Shown piece after piece: positions 1 to 53,778 of a stretch of 64,000 bases of DNA. Source of the DNA: a bacterium (GTDB lineage Bacteria; Electryoneota; Electryoneia; Electryoneales; Electryoneaceae); the NCBI GenBank assembly GCA_020444425.1, contig JAHLLB010000022.1, positions 1 to 64,000 of the forward strand, read 5' to 3'. Position numbers and translations under genes: made by a program. Numbering within the stretch: the first letter of the stretch is position 1; every line of letters begins with the position of its first letter. The notes under the pieces are model-generated. The model ran no database searches. It was not told the DNA's origin and saw nothing but the letters and a program-made list of their open reading frames with translations.

Positions 1-53
1 GCCCATAGCCCATAGCCCATAGCCCATAGCCCATAGCCCATAGCCCATAGCCC
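1..53. repeat. Heptanucleotide tandem repeat, unit GCCCATA x7.5
   Basis: Seven perfect copies of GCCCATA plus GCCC run directly into the ATG of murQ, so the usual ribosome-binding position is occupied by repeat DNA and no purine-rich Shine-Dalgarno is visible. The array starts at the window edge and may be longer. Other period-7 arrays in this window follow stop codons, so this one may belong to the 3' end of an unseen upstream gene. The reading frames through it contain TAG stops, so it does not extend the murQ coding region. Confidence 0.95.
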
Positions 54-899
54 ATGAACTACAATCCCGACCAGATCCGTGCCGCGCTGGATGAGATGGC
101 GCGCTTGAACACCGAGTCATCCAACCCGCGCAGCGAAACGTTGAGCGAGCTGAGTACGTCCGCAATTCTCGCGCTGATCAACGACGAGGACGCGACAGTC
201 CCGGCGACGGTTAACGCGGCCGTACCGATGCTGACGAACGTCGTCGAGGCCGCGGTGGGTGCGATTCAATCCGGCGGACGGCTGGTCTATGTCGGCGCGG
301 GAACATCAGGCCGGCTCGGTGTGCTGGACGCCGCCGAGTGCCCACCGACGTACGGTGTTCCGGCGACGATGGTGATTGGCATCATCGCGGGCGGAGACAG
401 CGCGTTAAAGGTCGCCGCTGAGGGTGCGGAGGACGACGAACAGCAGGCGATGGTTGACCTTGAGGCGCATGGAGTGAACGCAAAGGACGCCGTGCTTGGC
501 ATCACCGCACGTGGTCAGACGCCGTATGTGCGCGCGATCCTGCGCGAGGCGAAGCGGCGCGGTGCCTGGGCCGGGCTGTTGACCTGCAATGCGGTGGAAC
601 ACGATCCGGATCTGGATGCGCTGGTCGTGCTCGATGTCGGGCCGGAGGTGGTGACCGGATCAACGCGGATGAAGGCGGGGCTGGCGACGAAGATGGCGTT
701 GACGATGATCTCTACCGCGACGATGGTCCGCTTGGGACGTGTCGAGGGCAACCGGATGGTGCGTCTGATGCCGAACTCGACGAAGCTCAAAGCGCGCCAG
801 GTGAAGCTGCTGATGGAGACGAAGGGCGTGACGCTGGAGGAAGCGGCGGAGCGTCTCGAGGTGGCAGGCGGTGATTTGACGAGAGCGCTGGCGATGTGA
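54..899 (+). CDS. murQ: N-acetylmuramic acid 6-phosphate etherase MurQ
   Basis: MurQ cleaves the lactyl ether of MurNAc-6-phosphate to give GlcNAc-6-phosphate and D-lactate in cytoplasmic peptidoglycan recycling. The 281-residue product has the family hallmarks in order: LNTESSNPRS near residue 19, LINDEDATVP near 41, the SIS-domain phosphosugar loop GAGTSGRLGVLDA at 81-93, ECPPTYGV at 95-102 and EGAEDD at 123-128. The last two hold the conserved acidic residues used in catalysis. The later GPEVVTGSTRMKAG block is also typical. Length is slightly under the usual ~300. No anhMurNAc kinase or MurNAc transporter lies beside it. The ATG at 54 is the only sensible start because the upstream repeat carries stops in frame. 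An internal ATG at residue 15 would also keep the whole conserved region. Confidence 0.93.
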   Translation: MNYNPDQIRAALDEMARLNTESSNPRSETLSELSTSAILALINDEDATVPATVNAAVPMLTNVVEAAVGAIQSGGRLVYVGAGTSGRLGVLDAAECPPTYGVPATMVIGIIAGGDSALKVAAEGAEDDEQQAMVDLEAHGVNAKDAVLGITARGQTPYVRAILREAKRRGAWAGLLTCNAVEHDPDLDALVVLDVGPEVVTGSTRMKAGLATKMALTMISTATMVRLGRVEGNRMVRLMPNSTKLKARQVKLLMETKGVTLEEAAERLEVAGGDLTRALAM

Positions 900-946
900 T
901 CCATTGCCCCGCAGGCTATGTTACCTTCCACCGGAGGACGTAACCC

Positions 947-970
947 ATGCGGCGGGGTGAACTCGAATGA
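947..970 (+). promoter_or_regulatory. Seven-codon leader ORF overlapping the sulfatase start
   Basis: GGAGG at 933-937 is followed, 9 nt later, by ATG at 947. The frame encodes MRRGELE and stops with TGA at 968-970, overlapping the sulfatase ATG at 967 in an ATGA arrangement. This geometry is typical of translational coupling. The GGGGTG run at 954-959 could instead serve directly as the sulfatase ribosome-binding site, so the leader may be fortuitous. Confidence 0.35.
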
Positions 971-2340
971 ATCGACGGAAATTTGTACAGCTGACAGGCG
1001 GCGGCGCAGCGGCGCTGGCACTGTCCCACTCATCGGTTCTCAGCCAGCCGACCCACCCGAATGTGTTGTTCATCCTGATGGACGACATGAATGATTGGCC
1101 GGGATTTCTCGGCGGTCATCCGCAGGCGATCACGCCGAACATCGATGCCCTTGCGAACAGCGGCGTGCAGTTCACCAACGCGCACGTCAACTCAACGATG
1201 TGCATCCCCTCCCGTTGCAGCATGTTCACCAGCCTGCGTCCCTCTTCGACGGGAATTTACGCCAATCACCAGGATTGGGAAGACTACCTCGATGACCCGT
1301 TGTGGATGCCGGTCAATTTCTCGCAGAATGGGTACAACACCTTCCGTGCCGGGAAGTTTTTCCACCATCCGTTGAACGATCTGTGGACGGAAACCGACGG
1401 TCCGCACCAGTCCAGCCGTCCGCCGGACTACCCGGTTGACGGCATGCCGTGGAGCGAAGGGTTTTACGACTTCTTCGATTTTTCGCCTGTGGATGTACCG
1501 GACGGTGCAACCCGGCAGGGGAGATGGTCGAACTGGATCATCGAGAAATTGCAGCAGGCGCACTCGCAGCCGTTTTTCATGGCGTTGGGTCTGACCGCGA
1601 CGCACTATCCGTTCAACGTGCCCCGCAAGTACTTCGAACCGTTCCCGCTGGAATCCATCGTGCTGCCGGAGATGCCTGAAGACGAGCTGGACGACATTCC
1701 GGACTTGCCGCGCACGCTGTATTCCGATCTGCCGCACCACGACAATCTGGTCAAGCAGCAGCAGCGCAGGAAGGCGGTGCAGGCGTACCTCGCGACGCTG
1801 TATTTCGTTGACACGCTGCTTGGGCGCGTGCTGGATGCGTTGGACTCGAGTCCCTACGCGAATGATACCATTGTCGCAATGACCAGCGACCACGCGTTGC
1901 ATTTCGGCGAGAAACGCCACTGGCGCAAGTTCGCGCTCTGGCGTGAAGATACGCGGGTGCCATTGATACTGCGGGCGCCGGGAGTGACGCAGGCGGGCGG
2001 GATCCACACTCACGCGACCGAAGTACTCGACCTGTATCCGACCTTCGCCGACCTGTGCAATTTGAGCCCGATTCCGGGCGCGGAGGGGGTGTCGTTGCGC
2101 AACCGGCTGGAGGATCCTTCGACACCAGGCACCCGTCCCGCGTTGATCACGGCGTCGTACCTGCGTCACGCGATCGTGGACGATCGCTGGCGGTACATCC
2201 GTTACGAGGATGACACCGAGGAGCTGTACGATCACGACGTCGACCCGCGTGAGCACACGAACCTCGCGAATGATCCCGGCCACCAGGCAATCAAGGCATC
2301 GTTGGCTGGATGGCTGCCTGATCTTAATGTGGAACCGTGA
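967..2340 (+). CDS. Tat-exported type I sulfatase (iduronate-2-sulfatase-like)
   Basis: This enzyme is predicted to hydrolyse sulfate esters, most likely on sulfated glycans, outside the cytoplasm. The 457-residue protein begins with a twin-arginine signal (NRRKFVQLTGGGAAALAL). The sulfatase core follows: NVLFILMDDMND at 32-43 with the metal-binding acidic pair, and the C79-I-P-S-R83 motif, whose cysteine is normally converted to formylglycine. The later TSDHALHFGEKRHWRKFALWRE segment matches the metal-binding DH and substrate-lysine region of iduronate-2-sulfatase-type enzymes. No formylglycine-generating enzyme is in the window, so maturation must come from elsewhere. A T9SS cargo gene starts 1 bp after its stop, suggesting cotranscription. 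The exact substrate cannot be read from sequence. Confidence 0.9.
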   Translation: MNRRKFVQLTGGGAAALALSHSSVLSQPTHPNVLFILMDDMNDWPGFLGGHPQAITPNIDALANSGVQFTNAHVNSTMCIPSRCSMFTSLRPSSTGIYANHQDWEDYLDDPLWMPVNFSQNGYNTFRAGKFFHHPLNDLWTETDGPHQSSRPPDYPVDGMPWSEGFYDFFDFSPVDVPDGATRQGRWSNWIIEKLQQAHSQPFFMALGLTATHYPFNVPRKYFEPFPLESIVLPEMPEDELDDIPDLPRTLYSDLPHHDNLVKQQQRRKAVQAYLATLYFVDTLLGRVLDALDSSPYANDTIVAMTSDHALHFGEKRHWRKFALWREDTRVPLILRAPGVTQAGGIHTHATEVLDLYPTFADLCNLSPIPGAEGVSLRNRLEDPSTPGTRPALITASYLRHAIVDDRWRYIRYEDDTEELYDHDVDPREHTNLANDPGHQAIKASLAGWLPDLNVEP

Positions 2341-2341
2341 G

Positions 2342-3787
2342 ATGAAGATCCTGAAATACAGCCTGCTTGTGATCGGAATCCTGTTCGCAGCATGTGCCTT
2401 CGCCCAGCCGCAGGCGCAGGAGTACATCTATGGCAGCAACACGTATGATGTGCTGAACGCGGTGACACGGCTTCCCGACGGTTCCTTTATTCTCGCCGGA
2501 ACCTCCCCGCCGGACGGTGACAGCTGGCAGGATGTGTACCTGGAGAAACTGAACGTCGGTGGTACCGGGACGGAATGGACGGTGGAGTTCGGCGGCTGGC
2601 CGTGGGATGAACCGTACGATGTCATCCCGGCGTTGGATGGCGGCTACCTGGTGGTCGGTGCGACTCGGTCCGGCGCAGGCACGACGCACGAGATGTTCGC
2701 GCGGCGCATCAACCCGGACGGTTCCCCCGACTGGCAGCACGAGTATGGCGCTGCCGGATACGACGCCGCACGGAAAGTGTTCGCACATGATGGCGGCTAC
2801 ACCCTCTTTGGCTACACCCGGCTGGAGAAATTCGGCCGCTCTGACTTTCGCATGCTGCGTATCGACACCGACGGCAACGAACTGTGGCACGCCGATTACG
2901 GTGGTAGCGAGGACGAGATGTGCTTCGGTGCGGGCCGGGCCGGAGACGGCAGTTTCTTGATCGCTGGCTACACGCATTCGTGGGAGTCGCAGGATCAGGA
3001 CCTGTACATGGTGCATGTGAACGCCGACGGCGACATGCTGCATGAGTTCTACGAGGTCGCGGACTATCCGTACGTACCGCGTGCGGTCATCGGCGAAAGC
3101 GACGGCTTTGTTATCGCCGGGACCATGTACGCGCACCCCGAAAGTGAGATGCCGAGCGCGTTCCTGATGAAGGTCGATCTGGACGGAAACATCGTCTGGC
3201 GGCACGACTACACGGATGGCATGTACGCCGAACCGCGCGCATTGACGAAGACGCCGTACGGGTACGCGTTGGCCGGATTCGCCTACAACGGCGGGCAACC
3301 GGACGGCTGGGTGCGGTGGACGAACAGTGCGGGCAATGCGGGCACCGAATGGACCGTTGGTGGCGACGGTTGGGAGGAATTTCACGCTGTCGCATTGCTC
3401 GGTGAGAACGATCTGCTGCTCGTGGGATTAAGCACCAGCACGGCCAACCGGGAATCGGATTTCTACCGTGTCCATGTCGGCGATTCGCTGGTGGCCAGCC
3501 CGGAACGACGGACGGTGGTCGAAGAGTATCGGCTCGCGGACGCCTGGCCGAACCCGTTCAACTCGGTGACACGGCTGCGGTTTGAGACCAACCGTGCGAT
3601 CGCTCTCCGGATTGCGTTGTACGATTTGCTCGGGCGGGAGGTGTTGACCGTGGCGCAAGGGTTTGTTTACGCCGGCGCACACAGTTACCTGCTCACCGGC
3701 TCGACGCTGGCGAGTGGGATGTATTTAGTGCGTGCCTATGCGAACGGTACACCCGTCGATCAGAAACGGGTGGTGTTGGTGAAGTAA
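2342..3787 (+). CDS. Secreted beta-propeller-like protein with T9SS sorting domain
   Basis: The function is unknown. The 481-residue product starts with a signal peptide (MKILKYSLLVIGILFAACAFAQ). It then has repeated units of about 50 residues of the form DGGYLVVGATRSG and DGSFLIAGYTHSW, which suggest a beta-propeller or delta-60-type repeat fold. Residues ~395-481 form a T9SS C-terminal domain: AWPNPFNSVTRLRFE, then YDLLGREV, then SGMYLVRAYANG and a VVLVK end. It should therefore be exported across the outer membrane and processed by a PorU-type sortase. The ATG at 2342 is chosen over an upstream in-frame start inside the sulfatase gene because it gives a clean signal peptide. Only one base separates it from the sulfatase stop. 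Confidence 0.85.
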   Translation: MKILKYSLLVIGILFAACAFAQPQAQEYIYGSNTYDVLNAVTRLPDGSFILAGTSPPDGDSWQDVYLEKLNVGGTGTEWTVEFGGWPWDEPYDVIPALDGGYLVVGATRSGAGTTHEMFARRINPDGSPDWQHEYGAAGYDAARKVFAHDGGYTLFGYTRLEKFGRSDFRMLRIDTDGNELWHADYGGSEDEMCFGAGRAGDGSFLIAGYTHSWESQDQDLYMVHVNADGDMLHEFYEVADYPYVPRAVIGESDGFVIAGTMYAHPESEMPSAFLMKVDLDGNIVWRHDYTDGMYAEPRALTKTPYGYALAGFAYNGGQPDGWVRWTNSAGNAGTEWTVGGDGWEEFHAVALLGENDLLLVGLSTSTANRESDFYRVHVGDSLVASPERRTVVEEYRLADAWPNPFNSVTRLRFETNRAIALRIALYDLLGREVLTVAQGFVYAGAHSYLLTGSTLASGMYLVRAYANGTPVDQKRVVLVK

Positions 3788-3860
3788 GGACCGGTTTCTG
3801 CTTTGACGCGCCCCGGTCAAGTTCGCCCCGGCCGCAATCGTGCTGGTCGGGATTGTTCGG

Positions 3861-3912
3861 CAGGTGCCCCTGATGGTTTCGCCAGCGGGGATGATCCACG
3901 ACATGAATGTCG
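3861..3912. repeat. Mosaic palindromic repeat (CCCCTG...CAGCGGGG and GACAT-GA-ATGTC hairpins)
   Basis: Two small hairpins sit between the T9SS cargo gene and the acetyltransferase: a GTGCCCCTGATGG...CCAGCGGGG stem, and CGACAT-GA-ATGTCG at about 3899-3912. The same modules recur at 5159-5189, 24378-24397 and 32726-33034, so this is a dispersed repeat family. Its 3' edge lies only a few bases from the candidate start codons of the next gene. Confidence 0.7.
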
Positions 3913-3929
3913 TAGGCATGGGGATGACG

Positions 3930-4676: not shown

Positions 4677-4684
4677 GGTGCAGG

Positions 4685-5026
4685 ATGAAGCTGGCGGAAC
4701 CGTTTCCGGAATTTGTCAAGAACCTACCCGAAATCGAGCTGCCGGTTCCGGGCGCGCGTGGCTGGATGATGCAGAGTGAGGGGCAGCAGGTGGTGTTTGC
4801 CCGGTTTGACGAAACGGTGGACGTCCCCGAACACTCCCATTCAGAACAATGGGAGTTCGCGTTGGATGGACGAGTCGATCTGAAAATGGACGGGCAGGTG
4901 TTGACACATACAGCCGGCGAGAATTTCTACATCCCGGCGGGCAAACCGCACGGCGCAACGGTGCACGCCGGCTACCGTGCGATGATGGTGTTCAATGAGC
5001 CGGACCGGTACAAACCGAAGGTGTGA
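4685..5026 (+). CDS. Small cupin-domain protein
   Basis: A single-domain cupin of 113 residues, probably cytoplasmic. The first cupin motif is visible as HSHSEQWEFALDGRVDLKMDG, giving two histidines and a downstream glutamate as metal ligands. The second is AGENFYIPAGKPHGATVHAG with the last histidine. Such proteins bind a metal and often a small carboxylate or sugar; the substrate here is not predictable. The ATG at 4685 has GAGGTG at about 4675-4680 as ribosome-binding site and lies 8 bp after the GNAT gene, so the two are likely cotranscribed. Heptad repeats begin five bases after its stop. Confidence 0.82.
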   Translation: MKLAEPFPEFVKNLPEIELPVPGARGWMMQSEGQQVVFARFDETVDVPEHSHSEQWEFALDGRVDLKMDGQVLTHTAGENFYIPAGKPHGATVHAGYRAMMVFNEPDRYKPKV

Positions 5027-5030
5027 CGTA

Positions 5031-5065
5031 GAGTTGTGACTGAAGAGTTGTAAGTGAAGAGTAAG
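5031..5065. repeat. Degenerate heptanucleotide repeat after the cupin stop codon
   Basis: Five consecutive heptads can be read: GAGTTGT, GACTGAA, GAGTTGT, AAGTGAA and GAGTAAG. Period 7 is clear, but units alternate and are diverged. The array begins 5 bp after the cupin stop codon, matching the placement of the other arrays. Confidence 0.7.
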
Positions 5066-5095
5066 AAAACAGCGAACAGATAAAATTGCGTTTGC

Positions 5096-5189
5096 CCCGA
5101 CCAGCTTGCTGGTCGGGATGCTCCAGCATTGACAGAACCTCGCCTGCCCCGATATCACGTGCCCCTGCTGGCAGAGCCCGCAGGGGCAC
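5096..5189. repeat. Mosaic palindromic repeat with two strong hairpins
   Basis: CCCGACCAGC-TT-GCTGGTCGGG at 5096-5117 is a perfect 10-bp hairpin with a two-base loop. GTGCCCCTGC...GCAGGGGCAC at 5159-5189 is a second perfect 10-bp stem. The first has a sister at 53402-53423 with an AA loop. The second matches the CCCCTG/CAGGGG module seen at 3861 and 32726-33034. Confidence 0.8.
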
Positions 5190-5224
5190 ATTCTCGAGAC
5201 GCTGACCACAACTGTGTGGAGAAA

Positions 5225-5256
5225 ACGATGCCACAGATTCACATCCGTGGCATCGT
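5225..5256. terminator. Hairpin between convergent genes
   Basis: ACGATGCCAC and GTGGCATCGT form a perfect 10-bp stem around a 12-nt loop, followed by TTAGTCTTTGT. It lies between the convergent cupin and subtilisin genes, so it may end transcription from either side, but the T-tract is weak. Confidence 0.5.
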
Positions 5257-5264: not shown

Positions 5265-5299
5265 GTCTCAAGTCTCAGGACTCAGGACTCAGGACTGTT
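5265..5299. repeat. Heptanucleotide repeat, GAGTCCT family (minus-sense)
   Basis: Heptads GTCTCAA, GTCTCAG, GACTCAG, GACTCAG and GACTGTT read on the plus strand. On the strand of the adjacent subtilisin gene, the sequence after the stop runs ACAGTCCTGAGTCCTGAG and ends TTGAGACAAAGAC. That is the same order as the array after the stop at 19140. It ends 3 bp from the subtilisin stop codon. Confidence 0.85.
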
Positions 5300-5302: not shown

Positions 5303-7501
5303 TTACTTCATCAGCATCACTTTCTGAACGAGTGCCTGGCCGCCGTTGAACTGCGCGCGGACGAGGTACACGCCGCTGGTGAGGTTGGACGCGTCAAACG
5401 TCAGACTGTGCTGCCCACCGGCGTAACGGCCGTTCGCGAGCGTCGCAACTTCCTGGCCGAGCGTGTTGAACACCTGCATCCGCAGGTCGCCGGCGTCCGG
5501 CAGGGTCACGTTCAGCGTGGTGGTCGGGTTGAACGGGTTCGGGTAAGCCGCGCCCAGCGCAAACTTGCCCGGCATGGTTTCCGCCGTCGCAATTTCCGCA
5601 TTCTGCTTCAGATCCCAACCGGTGGAATTCCAGTCACCTTCCGAGTCCGCACCGAGGCTGAATTTGAGGAAGACGAAGGAATCCTGGTCGATGACGGTAC
5701 CCGGATACTGGCCGGCCTTGGCGACGTAGAGGTATTCACCTTCCGGCGCGAAGCCCGGGACGTTCTGCTGCACACCGGTCACGACGATATCGACACCCGG
5801 CTGGAAGGTGACGTTGTAGACATCCAGCGGATAGGTGTTGCCGTTCGGCAGGATCGCTTCGGTCCAGACCTGGCCCGGCGTGGCGGTGGTGTAGTTGTTG
5901 CGGATTTCGGCGTCAAAGATCAGCGTGCCGCCGTTCTGCAGGACCACGTAGGGCTCATACAGCGGATCGAGGTTGACAACCACATCGCTCATGGACGCTT
6001 CGGCGAGCAGCGCGGCTTCGTATACGTCCACACGGCCCGCGCCAAAGACGTTGTCCTTGCCGGTCGCGCCGAGGTCGACGGTCGTCGTCTGCAGGATCTC
6101 GTCAACTTCTTCCGGGGTCAGGTTCGGGTTGATCGAACGGATCAGGGCGATGGACCCACCGGCGCACGGGGACGCCATCGAGGTACCGGACTTGATGGTG
6201 TAGCCGTTGATGTTGGAGTAGCTGCAGGAATTGATGTCTTCGCCCGGGGCGGACACGTCCGGCTTGATCAGGCCCTGGTTCTGGCCGTTGTTGTAGACGT
6301 AGTCAAACCACGGGTCGATGTTCTCCCACGTGACCGGGCCGTGGCTGGAATAGGATGAAATGTTGTCGCTGCTGTTGGTGGAGCCGACGACGGTCAGGCC
6401 GCCCTGGCCACCCGGTTCGGTCTGGTCAGGGTTGTGCCACGGGGACGGAACCCAACCCGGCGCGGACACCTGCTCCGGCGGAGTGTTGAAGCTGGAACCG
6501 CCCGAGTTTCCTGCCGATTTCGTATTCGTCAGACCAGCGAGGCGGGCGACTTCGTACGTGTCGCGGTTACCCTGGTGCAGGGCGTTGGAGATGTTGTACC
6601 AGCCGGCGCTGATGGTGGTGTGGTGGGCGCCGTGTTCGACCGCCCAGTTGACACCAGCCCAGACGTCGCTGAGATCCGCGCCGCCGCCGTCGCTCATGAT
6701 CTTGACGCACATGATGGTCGCGTCCGGAGCGATACCGGCCTGCGTGCCCGCGGTACCGTCGCTGGCGACAATACCCGCAACGTGGGTACCGTGACCGTGA
6801 TAGTCCATCGGGTCGTTGTCGTTGCTGTACACGTCATAACCGTGGTTCGGGAATTCCGCGCCACCATCCCAGAGGTGGTCGGCGAGGTCGACGTGGTTGT
6901 AATTCACGCCGGTATCCATGATCGCGACGATGATGCCTTCACCAGTGTAGCCCATGTCCCACACGTCCGGGGCACCCACCTGGTTCACATGCCAGGCGAT
7001 TTCGTCGGTCTGGTTCCCGCCGGGGGTTCCGGAGGTTTCAACCGGCTCGAGGCACTGCACGTCCGGGGAATACTCGATCACGTTGACATCGTGACGGTCC
7101 GCCAGGCGGCGGATCGCGGTCGGGGTCAACTTCGCGGAGATCGAGTTGTTGATCGCGATGGAACGGATGCTCTCGGCCTGGCCGAGCTGCTCATCGGCAT
7201 ACAAGGCACCGAGGATGTCATCCTGCGCGATTTCGGCGGTACGGCTGACCTCATCCCAGAGCAACGCGCGGCGCTGTTCGATGCTGCGCACGCCTTCGAG
7301 ATACAGCTGTAGTTCCTGAGTATCCGGACGCGGATTCATCAGGATCACGACCTCGAGCAGCTCCGCATCATCAGCGGATGCCAGCACGGGGACGAGCGCA
7401 TCACCGTATACGGACGGAGCGGAGCTCGCGAACGCGGACGGCAGCAGAAACGCCGCCAGTAACATGACAGCGAGGGGGAGACGGAAAATGCGGGAATTCA
7501 T
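5303..7501 (-). CDS. Secreted S8 subtilisin-like serine protease with T9SS sorting domain
   Basis: An extracellular or surface subtilase of 732 residues. The N-terminus is a signal peptide (LAVMLLAAFLLPSAFA) followed by a ~150-residue propeptide region. The catalytic triad is intact: D196 in AIMDTGVNYNH, H237 in YHGHGTHVAGI and S441 in SGTSMASP, with oxyanion N332 in SAGNSGG. A beta-rich linker follows, then a T9SS C-terminal domain (AYPNPFNPTTTLNV, FNTLGQEVATL, SGVYLVRAQ, VMLMK). ATG at 7501 is preferred over the adjoining GTG at 7504 because GAGGTG lies 7 nt upstream. It is divergent from gcdH. Substrates are unknown, but general extracellular proteolysis is the normal role of this family. 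Confidence 0.93.
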   Translation of the reverse strand: MNSRIFRLPLAVMLLAAFLLPSAFASSAPSVYGDALVPVLASADDAELLEVVILMNPRPDTQELQLYLEGVRSIEQRRALLWDEVSRTAEIAQDDILGALYADEQLGQAESIRSIAINNSISAKLTPTAIRRLADRHDVNVIEYSPDVQCLEPVETSGTPGGNQTDEIAWHVNQVGAPDVWDMGYTGEGIIVAIMDTGVNYNHVDLADHLWDGGAEFPNHGYDVYSNDNDPMDYHGHGTHVAGIVASDGTAGTQAGIAPDATIMCVKIMSDGGGADLSDVWAGVNWAVEHGAHHTTISAGWYNISNALHQGNRDTYEVARLAGLTNTKSAGNSGGSSFNTPPEQVSAPGWVPSPWHNPDQTEPGGQGGLTVVGSTNSSDNISSYSSHGPVTWENIDPWFDYVYNNGQNQGLIKPDVSAPGEDINSCSYSNINGYTIKSGTSMASPCAGGSIALIRSINPNLTPEEVDEILQTTTVDLGATGKDNVFGAGRVDVYEAALLAEASMSDVVVNLDPLYEPYVVLQNGGTLIFDAEIRNNYTTATPGQVWTEAILPNGNTYPLDVYNVTFQPGVDIVVTGVQQNVPGFAPEGEYLYVAKAGQYPGTVIDQDSFVFLKFSLGADSEGDWNSTGWDLKQNAEIATAETMPGKFALGAAYPNPFNPTTTLNVTLPDAGDLRMQVFNTLGQEVATLANGRYAGGQHSLTFDASNLTSGVYLVRAQFNGGQALVQKVMLMK

Positions 7502-7757
7502 CACAGTTCACCTCATAGCAAATGTCGCCAGTTCCGTTGTTGGACCGTTGAGCTCGAAACATACGGAAGCCTGACCCGTTCGGCAATTCGAATTTGCGTA
7601 ATTTGGATTTTGACAATGGTGGAATCGTACCCCGGACTCGGGGAGTTCCCCGGTACTCGAAGCCATCTCCAGCGCCGAGCTTTGGCCCCTGACTCGGCGC
7701 AACCCACGCTGTATCTTGCACATTCCAAACGAAAGCACGTAACCCCGAGGATCGATC

Positions 7758-8929: not shown

Positions 8930-8978
8930 GGGCTGCTGACTACGGTCTGCGGGCTGCGGGCTGCTGATTACAGGTCGC
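8930..8978. repeat. Heptanucleotide repeat after gcdH, GGGCTGC family
   Basis: Seven heptads: GGGCTGC, TGACTAC, GGTCTGC, GGGCTGC, GGGCTGC, TGATTAC and AGGTCGC. The period is exact, with two unit types interleaved. It begins 3 bp after the gcdH stop codon. Confidence 0.8.
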
Positions 8979-19143: not shown

Positions 19144-19206
19144 CAGTCTTGAGTCCTGAGTCCTGAGTCCTGAGTCCTGAGTCTTGAGTCTTGAGTCCTG
19201 AGTCTT
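19144..19206. repeat. Heptanucleotide tandem repeat, GAGTCCT/GAGTCTT x9
   Basis: Nine in-phase heptads: CAGTCTT, four GAGTCCT, two GAGTCTT, GAGTCCT and GAGTCTT. A degenerate tail (GAGACAA, AGACTTC, GACACAG, ACTTCAG) extends to about 19234. The array starts 4 bp after the lamin-tail gene stop codon. It shares the order ACAGTC...TTGAGACAAAGAC with the array at 5265-5299 read on its gene's strand. Confidence 0.95.
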
Positions 19207-19263
19207 GAGACAAAGACTTCGACACAGACTTCAGACACAGACTTCAGACGAAAATCGTTTCAT

Positions 19264-22586: not shown

Positions 22587-22647
22587 CAGTCCTGAGTCCT
22601 GAGGCGTGAGATGTGAGATGTGAGACGTGGGACCTGAGACCTGAGAC
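22587..22647. repeat. Heptanucleotide repeat interrupted by an insertion sequence
   Basis: Heptads CAGTCCT, GAGTCCT, GAGGCGT, GAGATGT, GAGATGT, GAGACGT, GGGACCT and GAGACCT begin 4 bp after the hydrolase-like gene stop. The ninth unit is cut by the insertion sequence starting at 22648, and the array resumes after it as ACCTGAGACCTGAGA at 23973-23987. Confidence 0.9.
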
Positions 22648-23972
22648 CAATGCTGTCCCAACGTTGAGTTGTGTAGTTCTTTGAAAGCCGCATGATTCTT
22701 GGGTTTGGAGCCAATTCGTTACGAAATCGATTTGAACTCGTCCAACTTCATCTGATGTTCTCTCCTGAGTTCATTTTGGAGGGGCATCGTGAACACCGGT
22801 CGGCTCGTCTTTTCTCAGTTGATGGATTTCCTTCCCATGCAGGATTTTCACAGGTGTGTCGCTCGCTACCGGGGCAATCACAAGGTCAAGAGCTTCCTGT
22901 GCTACAGCCAGTTTCTCTGTATGGTTTTTGCGCAACTGACCCATCGGGAGAGCCTTCGCGACATTGAAGCCTCTCTGCGTGCAGTCGCCGGCAAGCTGTA
23001 TCACACTGGATTTCGGGGTCAAGTCTCCCGCAATACCTTGGCCCACGCCAACCAGATCCGTGACTGGCGCATCTATCGTGATTTCGCACATCGTCTGATC
23101 GAGGAGGCCCGGTCGCTGTATGCCGATGAGGCGCTCGCAGTTGACCTCGACGCCACAGCGTATGCGTTGGATGCCTCGACCATCGAACTTTGCCTGACGT
23201 TGTTTCCCTGGGCGACCTTCAAACAGGGGCACGGCGGCATCAAGCTCCATACATTGCTGGATTTACGCGGCAACATTCCAACCTGGTGCGTGATCACGGA
23301 CGCGCTCACGCATGAGATCAGGCTGATGGATCAGCTCGTCTATGAAGCAGGCGCATACTACATCCTGGACCGAGGCTACATCGATTTTGCCCGGCTGTTC
23401 CGCATTGACCGCAGTGGCGCGTTCTTCGTCACCCGGATCAAGACAAACACCGCCTATCGTGTGGTGGAATCACGACCGGTGCCTGTCGGCAGCGGTGTGC
23501 TGGAAGACCAGTTGATTGTCTTCACCAGTCGTCCGAAATGCCGGCGCTACCCGGATCAACTGCGGCGTATCCGGTACCACGACGCTGAGACCGATCGCGA
23601 GCTGGTGTTTCTGACGAACCATCTCGATTTGGACGCAACGATCATCGCCGGTCTGTACCGGTCCCGCTGGCAGATCGAGCTGTTCTTCCGCTGGATCAAG
23701 CAAAATCTGCGCATCAAGGTCTTCTATGGGACCAGCAAGAACGCTGTGAAAACACAGATCTGGATCGCGATTTCTGTCTATGTCCTCGTCGCGATCATCA
23801 AGAAACGGCTCGGACTGACCACCAGTCTTTCGACAATGCTGCAGATCCTGAGCGTCACACTGTTTGAAAAAAAACCGATAAACCAACTACTTACGACAAG
23901 CCTCAACACTGACTTGTTAGTCGAAAACCCTAACCAGCTGAAATTATTCAGCTAAACGTTGGGACAGCATTG
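22648..23972 (+). mobile_element. Complete IS4-type insertion sequence with 9-bp target duplication
   Basis: The element is 1325 bp. Perfect 18-bp terminal inverted repeats (CAATGCTGTCCCAACGTT) at 22648-22665 and 23955-23972 extend to 24 bp with two mismatches. ACCTGAGAC is duplicated at 22639-22647 and 23973-23981, giving a 9-bp target-site duplication inside a heptad array. It carries one intact transposase, and the transposase stop codon lies inside the right inverted repeat. Intact ends, target duplication and reading frame suggest a recent, possibly still mobile insertion. Confidence 0.93.
22789..23955 (+). CDS. IS4-family DDE transposase with DUF4372 N-terminus
   Basis: A 388-residue transposase that excises and inserts the surrounding element. 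Residues ~1-75 (FSQLMDFLPMQDFHRCVARYRGN...FAQLTHRESLRDIE) match the DUF4372 DNA-binding-type N-terminus seen in this IS4 subgroup. The DDE catalytic core follows: first D in AVDLDATAYALDAS, second D in YYILDRGYIDFARL, and E in YRSRWQIELFFRWIK, which is the Y-x2-R-x3-E-x6-K signature of IS4 elements. The frame is uninterrupted and all key residues are present. The upstream end of the element (22672-22788) provides a purine-rich GGAGGGG before the ATG. Confidence 0.95.
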   Translation: MNTGRLVFSQLMDFLPMQDFHRCVARYRGNHKVKSFLCYSQFLCMVFAQLTHRESLRDIEASLRAVAGKLYHTGFRGQVSRNTLAHANQIRDWRIYRDFAHRLIEEARSLYADEALAVDLDATAYALDASTIELCLTLFPWATFKQGHGGIKLHTLLDLRGNIPTWCVITDALTHEIRLMDQLVYEAGAYYILDRGYIDFARLFRIDRSGAFFVTRIKTNTAYRVVESRPVPVGSGVLEDQLIVFTSRPKCRRYPDQLRRIRYHDAETDRELVFLTNHLDLDATIIAGLYRSRWQIELFFRWIKQNLRIKVFYGTSKNAVKTQIWIAISVYVLVAIIKKRLGLTTSLSTMLQILSVTLFEKKPINQLLTTSLNTDLLVENPNQLKLFS

Positions 23973-24411: not shown

Positions 24412-24474
24412 CGAACCCCGAACCCCGAACCCCGAACCCTGAACCCCGAGCCCCGAGCCCCGAGCCCCGAGCCC
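24412..24474. repeat. Heptanucleotide tandem repeat, CGAACCC/CGAGCCC x9
   Basis: Four CGAACCC, one TGAACCC and four CGAGCCC in perfect phase. The block structure (all A-type then all G-type) shows expansion by unit duplication. It ends 1 bp before the stop codon of the minus-strand desulfurase-like gene. Confidence 0.95.
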
Positions 24475-24475
24475 G

Positions 24476-25636
24476 TTACTGTGCGATATCCTCCACCGCG
24501 GCGATGGCGGTTTGCACCTGGTCCGGTGTGTTGAACGGTCCGAGCGAGAAGCGCACGGTTCCATGCAGGTCGAAGGTGCCGATGGATTCATGGCATTTCG
24601 GTGCGCACTGCAGGCCGGTACGGGTGGCGATGTCGTGGTCGACGTCCAGCATGATGCCGACGTTCATCGCGTCGATGCCCTCGACGTTAATCGAGAGCGT
24701 CGCGAGGTGATTCTCCAGCGAATCGCAACAGTAAGTCGTCACCTTCGGCAGATCCTTGATGCCGTCCACGAAGGTCTGCACCATCGCCATCTCTTTCGCG
24801 TGGATCGCCGCCGGGCCACCGTTTTCTTCGATCCAGCGCTGTCCCGCCCAGAGGCCGCCGATGCCCATCAGGTTCGGGGTGCCGTATTCCAGCCGCCACG
24901 GATATTCCGCCAGATGGTAAGGGAATGCCGAGCGCACGCCGGTCCCGCCGGAGCGGGTTTGGCCAATTTCGAGGTGTTCGCGGACGCAGATGACGCCGGT
25001 TCCGGTCGGACCCATCAGCGCCTTGTGGCCGGTCGCGACCAGGGCGTCCACATGCCATGCCTTCATGTCGATCGGGACCACACCTGCGGTCTGGGACGCG
25101 TCGATCACGAACTTCGCCTGGTGATCCTTGAGGATCGCACCAATCGCGGCGATGTCCTGGACGGTGCCGATAACGTTTGAGCCGTGGTTGACGACGACCA
25201 GCGACGTGTTCGGCCGCAGCGCGTTCTCGAGGTCGGCGGTCTGGATGAAGCCGTGCTCGTTGGGCGTGAGCCAGGTGACGTCGGCAACACCGTCGCGTTC
25301 GAGACAGTTCAGCGGCCGCAGCACGCTGTTGTGGTCGAGGTTGGTGCTGATGACATGGTCGCCCGGCTTGACCAGCCCCTGGATCACGATGTTCAGGCCG
25401 TCTGTGGCGTTGTGGCAGAAGAGAGTTCGTTCCGGCAGGTCACCGTTGAAGAAGGCGTTCAGTTTCTTGCGGGTGTTTTCGACGAGATCCCCGGCGGAGA
25501 TGGCGGCGTCAAAGCCCGAACGTCCCGGGTTGACCCCGTTGTGCCGGTAGAAGTCGTCCATGAACGCGTAGACTTCGTCCGGTTTCGGCCACGAGGTGGC
25601 GGCATTGTCCATGTAGATCAGGTCACGGGCGTCCAT
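24476..25636 (-). CDS. Class V aminotransferase, cysteine desulfurase-family protein
   Basis: A cytoplasmic PLP-dependent fold-type I enzyme of 386 residues. N-terminal YMDNAATSWPKPDEV, GVNPGRSG and FCHNATDGLNIVIQGL match the class V aminotransferase pattern. The PLP lysine is K205 in ATGHKALMGPTGTG. C344 in TGLQCAPKCHESIGT occupies the position of the catalytic cysteine in the cysteine desulfurase family exemplified by TIGR01977. It probably removes sulfur from cysteine for transfer to an acceptor, but these stand-alone members are poorly characterised and selenocysteine lyase or other activity is possible. No IscU, SufU or Fe-S assembly genes are adjacent. A kinase gene lies 141 bp upstream on the same strand. 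Confidence 0.85.
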   Translation of the reverse strand: MDARDLIYMDNAATSWPKPDEVYAFMDDFYRHNGVNPGRSGFDAAISAGDLVENTRKKLNAFFNGDLPERTLFCHNATDGLNIVIQGLVKPGDHVISTNLDHNSVLRPLNCLERDGVADVTWLTPNEHGFIQTADLENALRPNTSLVVVNHGSNVIGTVQDIAAIGAILKDHQAKFVIDASQTAGVVPIDMKAWHVDALVATGHKALMGPTGTGVICVREHLEIGQTRSGGTGVRSAFPYHLAEYPWRLEYGTPNLMGIGGLWAGQRWIEENGGPAAIHAKEMAMVQTFVDGIKDLPKVTTYCCDSLENHLATLSINVEGIDAMNVGIMLDVDHDIATRTGLQCAPKCHESIGTFDLHGTVRFSLGPFNTPDQVQTAIAAVEDIAQ

Positions 25637-32696: not shown

Positions 32697-32725
32697 CCGT
32701 CCGTCGATGAAAGCATCTCACAGGG

Positions 32726-33034
32726 TGTGGCCTTGTCGCACGATGTGCCCCAGTCAGCTTGCTGACGGCGGATGAACCCAGACATGAATGTCTGGAGCAT
32801 GACGGACCGAGGGTGAGTAATCCCTGCTGGCGGAGCCATCAGGGGCACAGACTCCGGTTACAGGATGTGGCCTTGTCGCACGATGTGCCCGTGTCAGCTT
32901 GCTGACGCGGATGAACCCAGAGATGAATGTCTGGGGCATGACGGACCGAGGGTGAGTAATCCCTGCTGGCGGAGCCATCAGGGGCACAGACATCGGGTCT
33001 GATGGCGGATGAACCCAGACATGAATGTCGTGGG
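32726..33034. repeat. Tandem ~140-bp mosaic hairpin repeat, about 2.2 copies
   Basis: A unit starting TGTGGCCTTGTCGCACGATG at 32726 repeats at 32866, giving a period of 140 bp. A partial third copy covers about 33002-33034. Each unit contains GTCAGC-TT-GCTGAC, CAGACAT-GA-ATGTCTG and CCCTGCTGGCGGAGCCATCAGGGG hairpins. The first two copies differ at few positions. The region fills the 480-bp gap between porV and the pseudo-peptidase gene. No gene is supported. Confidence 0.9.
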
Positions 33035-42072: not shown

Positions 42073-42080
42073 TACGGACA

Positions 42081-42129
42081 GTGGTCAGTAGTCGGTGCTC
42101 AGTTGTCAGTTATCAGTTGTCAGTTATCA
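42081..42129. repeat. Heptanucleotide repeat, GTTATCA/GTTGTCA family
   Basis: Seven heptads: GTGGTCA, GTAGTCG, GTGCTCA, GTTGTCA, GTTATCA, GTTGTCA and GTTATCA. The last four form an alternating 14-bp superunit. It starts 9 bp after the membrane-protein stop, preceded by GGACA as in the arrays at 19144 and 22587. Confidence 0.9.
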
Positions 42130-42165
42130 GTCCATCCGTTTCCGTGCCTTCTGTGTATTCTGTGG

Positions 42166-46650: not shown

Positions 46651-46801
46651 GTATCCGCGTTTGCAGGCAAACACGGGCACATTCCGGGTGTGATAGATCC
46701 TGGGGTGTCGCATCCGCGTTTGCAAGCAAACACGGGCACATTCCGGGTGTGATTGATCCTGGGGTGTCGCGTCCGCGTTTGCAAGCAAACACGGGCACAT
46801 T
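46651..46801. repeat. 59-bp tandem repeat x ~2.6 with CCGCGTTTGC hairpin, upstream of the QmoC-like gene
   Basis: CCGCGTTTGCA begins at 46655, 46714 and 46773, an exact 59-bp period. Each unit holds a CCGCGTTTGC-AA-GCAAACACGG hairpin and GGGCACATTCCGGGTGTGAT. Copies are nearly identical; the first has one change in the loop (CAGG for CAAG). The remaining parts of 46342-46902 show no gene. Confidence 0.9.
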
Positions 46802-46902
46802 CGGCTGCTGTGGTCGCGGGGATCTCCTGTTCGCCGGCTGTTGTGTGTAACCCTGGTACGTGACAAAAGGTGCAATCTGCGAACCCGATGAGGAGATGGA
46901 TG

Positions 46903-49426: not shown

Positions 49427-50565
49427 GGTTCCATTTCCTCACGCACAATGACCACCTGCCCTTTGGTCAGGCTGGCCGTCGTCATGTAGTAGGACAGCTG
49501 GATCAGGTTGTCGTCAAGTATGGCAACGTCCAGCGGTATGGCGCCTTGGTGCGGGAATGTTTCACCGTATTCACGTGTCCAGATGATATTCCCGGCGGCG
49601 TCAAAGCGTCTCAGTCTGATCGGGGCGGCGCTGAGTTCCTGGGTCAGGAGCAACAAACCGTTGTCACTCGCCGGTTCGATATCATGTCGCGAATACTCCA
49701 ACTCAGAGTTGGTGTATTGCCAGGCTATTGCGCCGGAAGCGTCCCACACGCACATGATATTCTGAATCAAAGCCCCTTCAACCTCCAGTACCCCAAAAGC
49801 AGCGAAGCCACCATCGGCAAGTGCCACGAAGGTTTGGACCAACGAGACGAACTCTGGATCGGCTATCGTACGTGTTTGCTGAGTTGATCCATCGGCCGAG
49901 ATGATGCGAACCCCAGTGATCGGAATGGGTGAAATCGGATCGTCGTTGGACAGAGTTTGCAGCAGCAGTGCGGTGTCGCCGTTCGGTATCCGGGCAGCGC
50001 CGACAGCGAGTTCGTGCGGCTCACGTTCAAAGCTGGTCGACCACAGGGTGACACCGAGCGCGTTAACGGCGGTGACGTGGATCAGCGTGTCTTCTACGCC
50101 TTCGTGCCCGGCGAGGATCACGCTTCCGTCTGGACGGGGCAGAGTGGAGGTCGCCGGGATATCGAGCAGCCAGTCGACACCACCTTCGGAATTGTACTTG
50201 AGCGGCGTCGGCGTGCCGGAACCGACGCAGCCATAGTCAACCGTCGCGTGGATATCGCTTGCGATGAAGTCCTCGCCGTCCGTTTCGAACAGGGTCTCGC
50301 CGTACGGTGAGATACGCAGCACGTTGAGGCCGTAATTCTCCGCCGGGCTCGCACCGAACAGGGTTGTCCCGAGAAGGAAGACATCTCCGCCGGGGGACGT
50401 GTCCGCGGTAAAGACCTGCGGATAGTCAAGCGTATCCGAGACGAACACGCCGGCGTCGGGCAATGGATCATCGACCGTTCGTACAACCTCGCCGTCTTCA
50501 CAGCCGGCCAGCAGGACAAGGGCGGAAAGCAGCAGAACGAGTAAAAGTAAGAATCGGGCACGCAT
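49423..50565 (-). CDS. Lipoprotein with propeller-like repeats (upstream of pair)
   Basis: A 380-residue predicted lipoprotein with a strong leader (RARFLLLLVLLLSALVLLAGC), lipobox LAGC and acidic start EDGEVVR. Blades such as PRPDGSVILAGHEG, IPNGDTALLLQTL, ALADGGFAAFGVLE and ASDNNGLLLLTQE-like sequence (ASDNGLLLLTQE) recur at ~50-residue spacing. It resembles the downstream lipoprotein in layout but is not closely similar. It has no sorting domain. The upstream region 50566-50651 separates it from a glycosyltransferase on the same strand. Confidence 0.78.
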   Translation of the reverse strand: MRARFLLLLVLLLSALVLLAGCEDGEVVRTVDDPLPDAGVFVSDTLDYPQVFTADTSPGGDVFLLGTTLFGASPAENYGLNVLRISPYGETLFETDGEDFIASDIHATVDYGCVGSGTPTPLKYNSEGGVDWLLDIPATSTLPRPDGSVILAGHEGVEDTLIHVTAVNALGVTLWSTSFEREPHELAVGAARIPNGDTALLLQTLSNDDPISPIPITGVRIISADGSTQQTRTIADPEFVSLVQTFVALADGGFAAFGVLEVEGALIQNIMCVWDASGAIAWQYTNSELEYSRHDIEPASDNGLLLLTQELSAAPIRLRRFDAAGNIIWTREYGETFPHQGAIPLDVAILDDNLIQLSYYMTTASLTKGQVVIVREEMEP

Positions 50566-50651
50566 GATGTCCCCCGGGATGCGATGATACCCACACGTTG
50601 ATAGCTACAATAACCTACACTCGGGGATGTGGATGTCGCAAGGAATGGGGA

Positions 50652-51485
50652 TCAATCGCTCGGTTTGTGTCCGCTGACGCTGAGCCGTGTGCGGGAGACC
50701 GTGGCCGCGTGACCGCTGCGGATCAGGCCGGCTTTGGTGTAGCGGAGGAATTTCTCGTAGCCGGTGGATACGGCGAGCAGGGCGCCGTGGGTGCCATCGA
50801 GGAAGCCGCGTTGCAGCAGGTATTTTTTGACGAAGGCGGCGAGCCCGTGGCGGATGCCGGGTGCGAGTCCGGCGCGGCGGTTCGGGTCGGCGGCGATTTT
50901 CTCGGCGGCGAGGGTGCTGTAGAGATCGATCTTCGCGAGGTAGCCGGCGAAGGTTGGGTTGGTGTGGTGATCGAGCGGGTGATACAGCCGGCGGACGGGT
51001 CCGTTGACGATGATCTTTTCGTGCACCGTGTCGCCGGAAACGCTGAACAGCGTGCGTTTCATCAGCCGCAGCACCCAGTCACGGTCCCAGCCACCATGCC
51101 GCATCTCATGGCCGAGGAAGAAGGAACGGCGGGGCAGTTCGTAGCCGTCGGCGTCCGGCTTGGCGATGGTGCTGAGGATTTCTTCGGCGAGGGCGGGGGG
51201 AATGCGTTCGTCGGCGTCGAGGGATAACACCCAGTCGCCGGTGGCGAGTTCCAGCGCACGGCCCTTGGTCTGTCCGAAGCCATCCCAGTCCAGTTCAACG
51301 ACCGTCGCGCCGTGTTGTTTCGCCAGTTCCCGGGTACGGTCGGTGGAGCCGGTGTCCGCGACGATGCGTTCATCGGCGAACGTGCACGACTCGAGGCACG
51401 CGTCAATGTTGAGCGCTTCGTCCTTCGTCATGATGACGATGGACAGAGTCGGACGGTCGCTATTTCCCTGACCGTATTCGGTCAT
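50652..51485 (-). CDS. Family 2 glycosyltransferase, WaaE/KdtX-like
   Basis: A 277-residue cytoplasmic-face glycosyltransferase. The GT-A core is clear: LSIVIMTKDEALNIDACLESC, ERIVADTGSTDRTRELA, GFGQTKGRALELATGDWVLSLDADERI (DxD motif in DADE) and LPRRSFFLGHEMRHGGWDRDWVLRL. This order matches the LPS-core glucosyltransferase group WaaE/KdtX, which adds sugar to the inner core. The protein may therefore act in lipopolysaccharide or another surface glycan. ATG 51485 overlaps the stop of the upstream glycosyltransferase by 4 bp; a longer in-frame extension upstream lies inside that gene and is rejected. Confidence 0.85.
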   Translation of the reverse strand: MTEYGQGNSDRPTLSIVIMTKDEALNIDACLESCTFADERIVADTGSTDRTRELAKQHGATVVELDWDGFGQTKGRALELATGDWVLSLDADERIPPALAEEILSTIAKPDADGYELPRRSFFLGHEMRHGGWDRDWVLRLMKRTLFSVSGDTVHEKIIVNGPVRRLYHPLDHHTNPTFAGYLAKIDLYSTLAAEKIAADPNRRAGLAPGIRHGLAAFVKKYLLQRGFLDGTHGALLAVSTGYEKFLRYTKAGLIRSGHAATVSRTRLSVSGHKPSD

Positions 51486-52543
51486 CCGGAACTCCGGGCC
51501 AGCATGTCGTTGTACACCGCAAGGTAACGCTTCGCAATCGCCGGTAGGGTGACATTGTCCAGCGCCCACTGTCGCGCCTTGTCCGCCATCGATGCGCGCA
51601 GGGCGGCGTCGTCCAGCAGCCGCGACACATGATCCGCGAGACAAATCGGGTCGCTGTGCGGGCAGGTCAGGCCACGGTCGGCGACACTGTCCCGCATCCC
51701 GCCGGTCAATGTTGAGACGACAGGCACATTGTGCGCGAACGCGTCGTACACGCTGCTGTTCAAGCCCTCGGTCCTGTTTCCGGTGACGAGGAAGACGGTG
51801 AACAGTGCGTACAGGTCTTCGACGCCGTCAATGTGGCCGAGCAGCCGCAGCCGGTCCTGCAGGCCGAAATTCTCGATTCCGGCACGGACCTTGTCGCCCA
51901 TCTGATCGTTACCACACTGGACGACGACAAAATCCTGCCGCCGTTTCGCCAGCTCACGCACGGTTTCGACCAGCAGCCGTGGATCCTTCTGTGGAACAAG
52001 ATCGCCCACCCAGCCGACGATGTTTGTGTCGTGCGGCACATGCAAAGATTCAAGCAAATTTCGAGCACGGTCTGTGTCCAGGTCGCGCGGTTTGACAGCG
52101 GAGGAGATAATCTCGACATCGCGCACGCCGAACTCGATCAATGTGTCGCGAATCGCGGTGCTGATGGCGACGGTGCGGTCGGTGGCGTTGTATTTAAGCA
52201 CCGAGCTGAAGCCATGCGGTTTGAAGTTGACGCGGCGGGTGTAAAGGATCGGGCGGTTGTGCAACGGTTTCGACAGCACGGCGATCGACTGGCCCTTGGC
52301 AGACTGGGCGTGAATCAGGTCGTAGGTGCGGCCGACGGTGGACGTAACCCGGACGGCATCAGCAGTGTTTCGCGCCGGGTGGATGGTGACCGGCAGATCG
52401 CGTACGGACTTGTGCAACGGGTAGTTGTCACGGCAGACCAGGCCGACCTCGACACCTGCGTCGAGCAGGCCCTCGATGGTGTAGACCGTTTGACGCTCAC
52501 CTCCGCGCCAGGTCTTCTCGGTGTTGATCTGCAGGATCCGCAT
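51482..52543 (-). CDS. Family 4 (GT-B) glycosyltransferase
   Basis: A 353-residue glycosyltransferase. N-terminal MRILQINTEKTWRGGERQTVYTIEGLLDAG is the acceptor-side GT-B motif. The donor-binding half has NIVGWVGDLVPQKDPRLLVETVREL, LLGHIDGVEDLYALFTVFLVTGNRTEGLNSSVYDAFAHNVPVV with the conserved acidic residue in TEG, and a glycine-rich TGGMRDSV. It probably works with the overlapping WaaE-like gene on LPS core or another envelope glycan, possibly also feeding the A-type glycan anchor used by T9SS. The last point is speculation. It is divergent from the class II aldolase gene. Confidence 0.87.
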   Translation of the reverse strand: MRILQINTEKTWRGGERQTVYTIEGLLDAGVEVGLVCRDNYPLHKSVRDLPVTIHPARNTADAVRVTSTVGRTYDLIHAQSAKGQSIAVLSKPLHNRPILYTRRVNFKPHGFSSVLKYNATDRTVAISTAIRDTLIEFGVRDVEIISSAVKPRDLDTDRARNLLESLHVPHDTNIVGWVGDLVPQKDPRLLVETVRELAKRRQDFVVVQCGNDQMGDKVRAGIENFGLQDRLRLLGHIDGVEDLYALFTVFLVTGNRTEGLNSSVYDAFAHNVPVVSTLTGGMRDSVADRGLTCPHSDPICLADHVSRLLDDAALRASMADKARQWALDNVTLPAIAKRYLAVYNDMLARSSG

Positions 52544-52626
52544 CCGTTCCCGGGTGCTGGTTGACGTTGTACATTGGCGGCAAGATACGCATTTCCCCGG
52601 GATGCTACCGACTCTGGAGGGGCGAC

Positions 52627-53322
52627 GTGAACGAAATCGATGGGATGCACCTGCGCGCCGAACTGATCGAGGTGGGCCAGCGGCTGGATCAACGCACGTT
52701 GATCTCCGGCACGGAAGGCAATGTGTCCGTCAGGCTGGGGCAGGATTCGATTCTGATCACCCAGTCCGGCACGATGCTCGGCCGGCTGATGCAGGAAGAT
52801 TTTGTACGCGTCGGGTTGAGCTCGGGCGAGCTGCTGGATAAACACGGCAAGCCGACGTCGGAGCTGGGGGCACACCTGAGCGCGTATCGGTCCGACCCGA
52901 ACATTCAGGCGATTGTGCACGCGCATCCGCGGTCGTGTGTCGCGTTAACGCTGCGCGGTTGGACCTTGGAAGGGATTCCGTTGCCGGAAGCGGCGTACGC
53001 GATCGGGAGTGTGCCGACCTGTGCGTTCGCGGTGCCGGGTTCGGACGAAGGCGGGGAGGTGATGGCACAATGGGCGGCGAAACGGGACGCGCTGGTGTTC
53101 GATCGGCACGGTGCGTTCACGTTCGGCAAGACACCGTTCGAGGCGCAGGCACGAATGGAGATGCTGGACGCGGTCGCGCAGTCGGTGCTGCTCGCCGGTG
53201 GGCCGGATCAGCTCAGGCCGATGACCACGGAACAGGTGGATCGTGTTGTGGCGAACGCGTTGAAGAGTGGGGTTCGTGAGGATTCGCTGCGCGCCTGGGC
53301 GGATGCGGTGAAGTTGCGGTAA
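52627..53322 (+). CDS. Class II aldolase/adducin-family protein, fuculose-phosphate aldolase-like
   Basis: A 231-residue cytoplasmic zinc enzyme. SGTEGNVSVRLGQDSILITQSGT is the phosphate-binding start of the family. E79 (TSELGAHLSAYRS) is the catalytic acid position, and H98, H100 (VHAHPRS) and H161 (DRHGAF) are the zinc ligands. The family cleaves or epimerises sugar phosphates such as L-fuculose-1-phosphate or L-ribulose-5-phosphate; the substrate here is unknown. GTG at 52627 is chosen, with CTGGAGGGG just upstream; ATG at 52645 is the alternative. No sugar isomerase or kinase partner is adjacent. Confidence 0.85.
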   Translation: MNEIDGMHLRAELIEVGQRLDQRTLISGTEGNVSVRLGQDSILITQSGTMLGRLMQEDFVRVGLSSGELLDKHGKPTSELGAHLSAYRSDPNIQAIVHAHPRSCVALTLRGWTLEGIPLPEAAYAIGSVPTCAFAVPGSDEGGEVMAQWAAKRDALVFDRHGAFTFGKTPFEAQARMEMLDAVAQSVLLAGGPDQLRPMTTEQVDRVVANALKSGVREDSLRAWADAVKLR

Positions 53323-53346
53323 TTCTGAACTCTGCCTGGTTTTATG

Positions 53347-53511
53347 TCCCTGTGACTCGCCGTCCGTCTGGCGGTTCGCAGGGATGATCCGAAAGGTCAT
53401 CCCGACGAGCAAGCTCGTCGGGGCAAACAACCCTGCCCAAGACATTTATGTCGGGAATGATCCGAAAGGTCATGACCCGCGATAGCCGTCACTAATAGCC
53501 GTGACGGTCAA
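53347..53511. repeat. Cluster of mosaic hairpins
   Basis: A TCCCTG...CGCC / GGCG...CAGGGA stem lies at about 53347-53382. GGATGATCCGAAAGGTCATCC-type hairpins occur at about 53383 and, diverged, at about 53456. CCCGACGAGC-AA-GCTCGTCGGG (53402-53423) is a perfect 10-bp stem, sister to 5096-5117. CCGTCAC/GTGACGG follows near 53486-53510. The rest of 53323-53618 holds nothing else. Confidence 0.75.
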
Positions 53512-53618
53512 TCACGGGCACCAGAGAACAGAAAACCCGCGTTGTCGAAGCCAACACGGGGAAGAATTTGAGGAGATGGTGTCGGATCAACGAGGAATCC
53601 GCCCCGTAACATCAGGTA

Positions 53619-53652
53619 GATTCTTCACTTCTCTTCATTCCGTTCTGAATGA
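53619..53652. repeat. Single arm of the TCATTCTGA element
   Basis: GATTCTTCACTTCTCTTCAT and then TCCGTTCTGAATGA read, in reverse, as TCATTCAGAACGGAATG followed by AAGAGAAGTGAAGAATC. This is the same arm as in the elements at 20948 and 24094. No partner arm is visible, so it is a solo or decayed copy. Confidence 0.65.
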
Positions 53653-53658
53653 CACACC

Positions 53659-53778
53659 CTCACCGGCTACCGGCCACCGACTACCGACCACCGGCCACCG
53701 ACTACCGGCTACCGGCTACCGGTCACCGACTACCGGCCACCGACCACCGACCACCGTCTACCGACTTACCGATCACCG
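53659..53778. repeat. Long heptanucleotide repeat, (G/A)(C/T)(T/C)ACCG x17
   Basis: Seventeen units of the pattern NNYACCG (GCTACCG, GCCACCG, ACTACCG, ACCACCG, GTCACCG, TCTACCG, ATCACCG). All keep ACCG, while the first three bases vary among a few types. The period is 7 except for one 8-base unit (ACTTACCG at 53764-53771). The array ends 4 bp before the stop codon of the minus-strand methyltransferase gene. Confidence 0.95.

Follow-up and report, generated by a model that had tools for sequence, protein, structure and literature searches.

The stretch of DNA analysed in this study, which we call the window, consists of bases 1-64000 of contig 3 in an assembly of 4.48 Mb and 74 contigs. The nearest named relatives of one protein encoded in the window were uncultured bacteria, one of which is labelled Calditrichaeota. 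Among the genes of the window are those for a cupin, a subtilase, an acyl-CoA dehydrogenase, an aminotransferase and a protein with a methyltransferase domain, and many genes carry a type IX secretion (T9SS) tail. A reading made from the sequence alone had listed nine tandem arrays here, all with a period of seven bases, and had placed eight of them within a few bases of a stop codon. In searches with Tandem Repeats Finder and by lag identity, we found all nine arrays in the sequence (Table 1). The position next to a stop codon held for eight of them; the ninth, at 1-55, lies at an assembly break and is uninformative on this point. The period of seven was weak in the array that had been listed at 5031-5065, because the period-7 scan missed it and Tandem Repeats Finder assigned it a unit of 14 bp with indels.

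Table 1. Tandem arrays of the window and the boundaries at which they lie
Array	Position	Strand	Boundary
GCCCATA (other strand ATGGGCT)	1-55	-	contig 3 terminus; shortened to 55 bp by the assembler
degenerate, 7/14 bases	5022-5065	+	begins at stop (5024-5026) of cupin gene
AGTCCTG	5265-5296	-	6 bp past stop of subtilase gene 5303-7504(-)
GGGCTGC	8930-8978	+	past stop (8927) of acyl-CoA dehydrogenase gene
AGTCCTG/AGTCTTG	19145-19209	+	4 bp past stop (19140) of lamin-tail-domain gene with T9SS tail
AGTCCTG to TGAG-N3	22588-22648	+	4 bp past stop (22583) of T9SS-tail gene
GGGCTCG/GGGTTCG	24412-24474	-	1 bp past stop of aminotransferase gene 24476-25636(-)
CAGT-N3	42076-42131	+	3 bp past stop (42072) of small ORF without known family
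CGGT-N3	53662-53778	-	past stop of methyltransferase-domain gene 53783-54655(-)

The edges of some arrays are gradual. The array behind the acyl-CoA dehydrogenase gene is array-like from about +3, and its clean part lies at 8940-8964. The clean part of the array behind the methyltransferase-domain gene lies 16 bp from the stop, with degenerate units up to about 3 bp from it. The last bases of the array at the contig end overlap the ATG of an ORF at 54-899. Heptamer arrays were found at 13 of the 49 contig ends examined, and several of these arrays, including that of the window, are exactly 55 bp long. Since the contigs are cut at arrays, these arrays probably extend further in the cell, and their lengths are underestimated. 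That is, short-read assembly breaks at heptamer arrays, and this should be kept in mind as a warning.

The arrays with the unit AGTCYTG (at 5265, 19145 and 22588 of the window and at loci L020, L024 and L033) lie mostly behind T9SS-tail genes, whose products end in VLMK before the stop. The ends of such genes and the arrays may have been copied together, and some of these arrays may be mutual copies. Directly behind the array at 22588-22648, a gene for a DDE transposase with a DUF4372 domain occupies 22789-23955.

The genome-level counts come from this single assembly, in which the window and separate stretches gave a sample of 1.11 Mb, 25% of the genome. For gene calling we wrote a codon-usage model, which gave 767 genes and 80% coding sequence and recovered the Pfam-supported genes of the window. 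The sample contained 106 arrays at the score used for the comparison of periods, and 115 arrays formed the set used for placement and units.

In this sample the predominance of period 7, which the window had suggested, was confirmed. At equal score, period 7 gave 106 arrays, and the periods 5, 6, 8-13, 15-17, 19 and 20 gave 0-24 each. Nearly all of the period-7 arrays (103 of 106) were non-coding, and the repeats of periods 6, 12 and 15 found by the same scan were mostly coding. After a dinucleotide shuffle, no period-7 arrays were found except runs of N. The arrays have a seven-base tandem unit, are non-coding and are dispersed (115 in 1.11 Mb); they are bacterial intergenic heptanucleotide tandem repeats, or STRR in the wide sense. 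Non-coding repeats of periods 9, 10 and 20 were also slightly over-represented in the sample.

The position of the arrays was compared with a null in which each array was placed at random within its own region in 5000 draws. In tandem intergenic regions, 25 of the 49 arrays lay within 15 bp of a stop codon, where 2.7 were expected and the maximum of all draws was 9. On the start side, the same test gave 2 arrays against an expectation of 2.7, that is, no excess near starts. Anchoring at stop codons, as proposed from the window, is thus obeyed by many unrelated units. A measurement that is independent of array calling gave the same picture: in the first 30 nt past 488 stops the self-identity was 0.31-0.33 at lag 7 and 0.24-0.28 at lags 5, 6, 8 and 9, and no lag-7 peak was seen before starts. 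Behind array-bearing genes, the lag-7 identity climbed steeply from +3 to +6 past the stop.

None of the 199 operon-like tandem gaps shorter than 60 bp carried a stop-adjacent array, compared with 25 of 326 longer ones. These counts support a tie to the ends of transcription units, at which the stop-adjacent arrays sit. Most of them are 23-75 bp long. They precede hairpins, and an A-rich stretch lies 3' of the array. Hairpins follow stops with or without arrays, and the hairpins behind arrays did not differ in strength from those behind other stops. The codon usage of array-bearing genes was slightly more typical. A site-specific process had also been considered in the sequence-only reading. 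No such process was shown: the array-bearing genes had no preference for a type of stop codon, their usage being ordinary, and no unit was common to both arrays of one region.

The main new point of this study is the strand polarity of the arrays, an observation that we regard as real with high confidence. When the arrays within 15 bp of a stop were oriented by the gene alone, the coding strand had G>C and G+T>A+C in all of them (45 of 45). For the arrays nearest to a start, the non-coding strand had G>C in 15 of 17, and the reverse was seen in 1. At both edges of a gene, then, the G-rich strand leads outward. The proposal that the arrays belong to the 3' ends of genes is accordingly too narrow as a rule, because arrays near starts also occur and have this outward polarity. 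In regions with two arrays, we found 14 inward pairs and 1 outward pair. Local base composition was rejected as the cause of the polarity, because neighbouring array-free sequence is without such strand skew. Replication-strand skew was also rejected: a single direction of replication cannot explain why the arrays at the two ends of a convergent or tandem region have opposite orientations.

The polarity is not tied to a sequence. The 115 arrays have 53 consensus units, and the two arrays of a region shared units no more than random arrays did (p = 0.46). The rule therefore acts on strand composition and not on a particular sequence. It predicts the place (the first bases past the final stop of a transcription unit) and the strand (the G-rich strand leaves the gene), and the sequence of the unit is irrelevant to it. 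Within arrays, mismatches avoid a 4-base core, the best core holding 108 where 180 were expected, a count that may also include mismatches copied by duplication. The evidence for this core is good but not final. The cores CGGT, CAGT, TGAG and GGCT/GACT recurred at independent loci. Across 39 genomes of the phylum, four CRGT-N3 units in a row were found in 14 and four TGAG-N3 units in 18, and a reversed control pattern also matched some arrays of other families.

In the stretches fetched from relatives, period 7 leads wherever there are arrays, and the units are different ones: AATT-ANG in G002, AAAGCCT and TGAGGGA in G020, and TGAG-CTG in G001. In several relatives the stretches covered contained no arrays. 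In fetched loci of other genomes of the phylum, with crude gene models, stop-adjacent arrays had G>C in 19 of 26, with 2 ties and 5 against, and 9 of 10 start-adjacent arrays followed the G>C rule. The acyl-CoA dehydrogenase orthologue of G001, which belongs to the same genus, has CTGGCTGTGGACTGTGGAAAA within 30 nt past its stop, a relic of two units whose place and strand are unchanged. Behind the aminotransferase orthologues of six relatives the array was absent (0 of 6). The arrays turn over between species, and place and strand persist in the one informative pair.

Similar repeats occur in distant bacteria. Mazel and others are said to have described, in 1990, cyanobacterial heptanucleotide STRR with period 7, an intergenic position and several units per genome; in these respects they resemble the present arrays, although the lineage differs. 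To our knowledge, stop anchoring and polarity across units have not been described for cyanobacterial STRR. For other heptamers, however, the earlier statement that stop-anchored placement is not described was too strong, because both this placement and the G-rich polarity have been published for Xanthomonas and Anabaena (PMC4692102). There, the heptamers GGGAATC and GGGGA(C/T)T occupy the coding strand when next to a stop and the non-coding strand when next to a start, and they were discussed as quadruplexes (PMC4692102). The present arrays share with them the intergenic position, the strand rule at stops and starts, the rarity between divergent genes, and the variation of length and sequence among close relatives (PMC4692102). 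The Xanthomonas and Anabaena repeats differ in that each lineage has a single G-tract unit, which is read as a quadruplex (PMC4692102), whereas the arrays here have their many consensus units, half of them without any G-run motif, and are anchored more tightly, within a few bp and without exception in 45. The rule found here is wider than the published quadruplex reason, since it holds for units without quadruplex motifs.

The TAACTGA direct repeats of Beggiatoaceae are heptamers with related variant units and a CAGT core on the other strand (TCAGTTA), and their strand pointing away from the start is T-rich, as here; in contrast, they lie next to start codons and not stops, have mainly one unit and reach at most 6 copies (PMC4679880). 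The four- and five-unit heptanucleotide elements of Geobacter metallireducens are likewise tandem and dispersed, but they form families of fixed copy number found by BLAST, some within genes (PMC2700814), and the predicted regulator-binding sites of that genome are mostly paired (PMC2700814). In passages of the SPADE survey, heptamers rank first in abundance among the intergenic tandem repeats of prokaryotes, and their function is said to be without a clear clue (PMC6344855). These are the same class of repeat, and those passages give no placement or strand rule for them (PMC6344855).

How such arrays come about can be considered as follows. We tentatively favour, as possible though not as probable, the view that they are heptamer arrays, of the kind known from cyanobacteria and Xanthomonas, produced by slippage at sites where transcription passes beyond translated sequence; its step through transcription and R-loops is one that we infer. 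Slippage would be local and repeated in the unconstrained stretch that separates the final stop of a transcription unit from its terminator, and less often upstream of a gene start. Arrays would be born or would expand where RNA polymerase continues past the exit of the ribosome. There, the naked G-rich nascent transcript might rehybridise with the template to form an R-loop, and this would expose single-stranded DNA that slips in repair or replication. Arrays near starts are assumed to mark divergent antisense transcription. Purifying selection would exclude arrays from terminator hairpins, promoters and coding sequence, the last because 7 is not a multiple of 3. In favour of this view are the stop position, the end of the transcription unit, the polarity and its absence from neighbouring array-free sequence, the 53 units, the turnover, the slightly more typical codon usage of array-bearing genes, the other genomes of the phylum and the repeats of Xanthomonas and Anabaena. 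It covers place and strand, but not period 7 or the 4-base core. Against the R-loop step, many arrays (AGTCCTG, CAGTTGT) are without G runs and would thus be poor R-loop formers.

One competitor dispenses with transcription. Neutral slippage might be limited by selection to the free pocket past the stop, and the polarity might come from an unnoticed constraint on the 3' and 5' untranslated sequence. This would account for the position, the absence of arrays from genes and operon gaps, and the turnover, but it offers no reason for a polarity without exception at the stops, beside which the array-free sequence is unskewed. We think it rather unlikely.

A bolder idea is that, across bacterial phyla, the arrays mark the borders of transcription units. 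One conserved activity would make or maintain them by adding 7-base units, with a 4-base core kept and the other 3 bases less fixed, and transcription out of the gene would determine the direction of addition. This would be a so far unknown repeat-generating process and not chance slippage, and we regard it as unlikely.

The arrays might instead be functional insulators resembling Rho-utilisation (rut) sites, which would keep antisense or read-through transcription out of a gene on both sides. One rule would then serve both edges of the gene, and Rho is encoded in the genome. Known rut sites are marked by C>G and by cytosines at regular intervals (PMC6407284). When the stop-adjacent arrays were read in the direction of the gene, C>G held in 53 of 53, YC dinucleotides were regularly spaced, at 1.49 per unit compared with 0.64 for the opposite strand, and the RNA was nearly unstructured (-0.08 against -0.25 kcal/mol per nt). 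However, C>G toward the gene restates the polarity, and the length of a rut site, 70-80 nt, is not reached by most arrays. Stop-adjacent arrays were only weakly enriched in convergent regions of at least 60 bp (behind 19 of 144 stops, against 25 of 326 in tandem gaps of that length, p = 0.08). In addition, cyanobacteria are without Rho (PMC13289151), yet the Anabaena heptamers have the same placement and strand (PMC4692102), so that Rho cannot be the general cause. The rho gene, present in every genome searched, also failed to discriminate array-rich from array-poor genomes. Taken comprehensively, we consider insulation of this kind quite improbable. The question of heptamer origin becomes testable with the present rule: does the direction of transcription decide where and how the repeats form, or do the repeats guard the borders of genes?

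It is very unlikely that the arrays are the ends of a small mobile element or are REP-like, inward arrays bounding a cassette that inserts past stop codons. The excess of inward pairs agrees with such a cassette. Of the array-bearing intergenic regions, 72% contained dispersed palindromic repeats, of which AGCCATCAGGGGCA and CATGAATGTCGTGGGCAT are examples, against 21% of the others. The genome also has several Y1 transposase genes. Against this, there are 53 units, and array pairs are no more alike than random arrays. Terminal inverted repeats were rejected, because the two ends are not inverted copies of each other, and Y1 transposases were found in every genome searched, with many arrays or not, and do not discriminate array-rich from array-poor genomes.

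G-quadruplex regulatory elements, as proposed for the Xanthomonas and Nostoc repeats, are highly improbable. The published quadruplex repeats do match in place and strand (PMC4692102), with the coding strand G-rich at 45 of 45 stops and the non-coding strand at 15 of 17 starts here. However, a three-tetrad motif with its four G tracts occurred in only 4 of 51 stop-adjacent arrays, and 26 of 51 were without even a two-tetrad motif, so that quadruplexes were rejected as the general cause. We also rejected, as hardly credible, back-up stop codons, by which a stop-containing 7-base unit would offer a stop in all three frames just past the gene: the coding strand does so in 24 of 53 arrays and the opposite strand in 5, but over half of the arrays do not offer such stops, arrays near starts are left out, and stop codon usage of the array genes is ordinary.

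Two tandem repeats of the window have longer units. At 32720-32991 there are two 139-bp tandem copies containing palindromic dispersed repeats, and at 46653-46802 a 59-bp unit is present in 2.5 copies.
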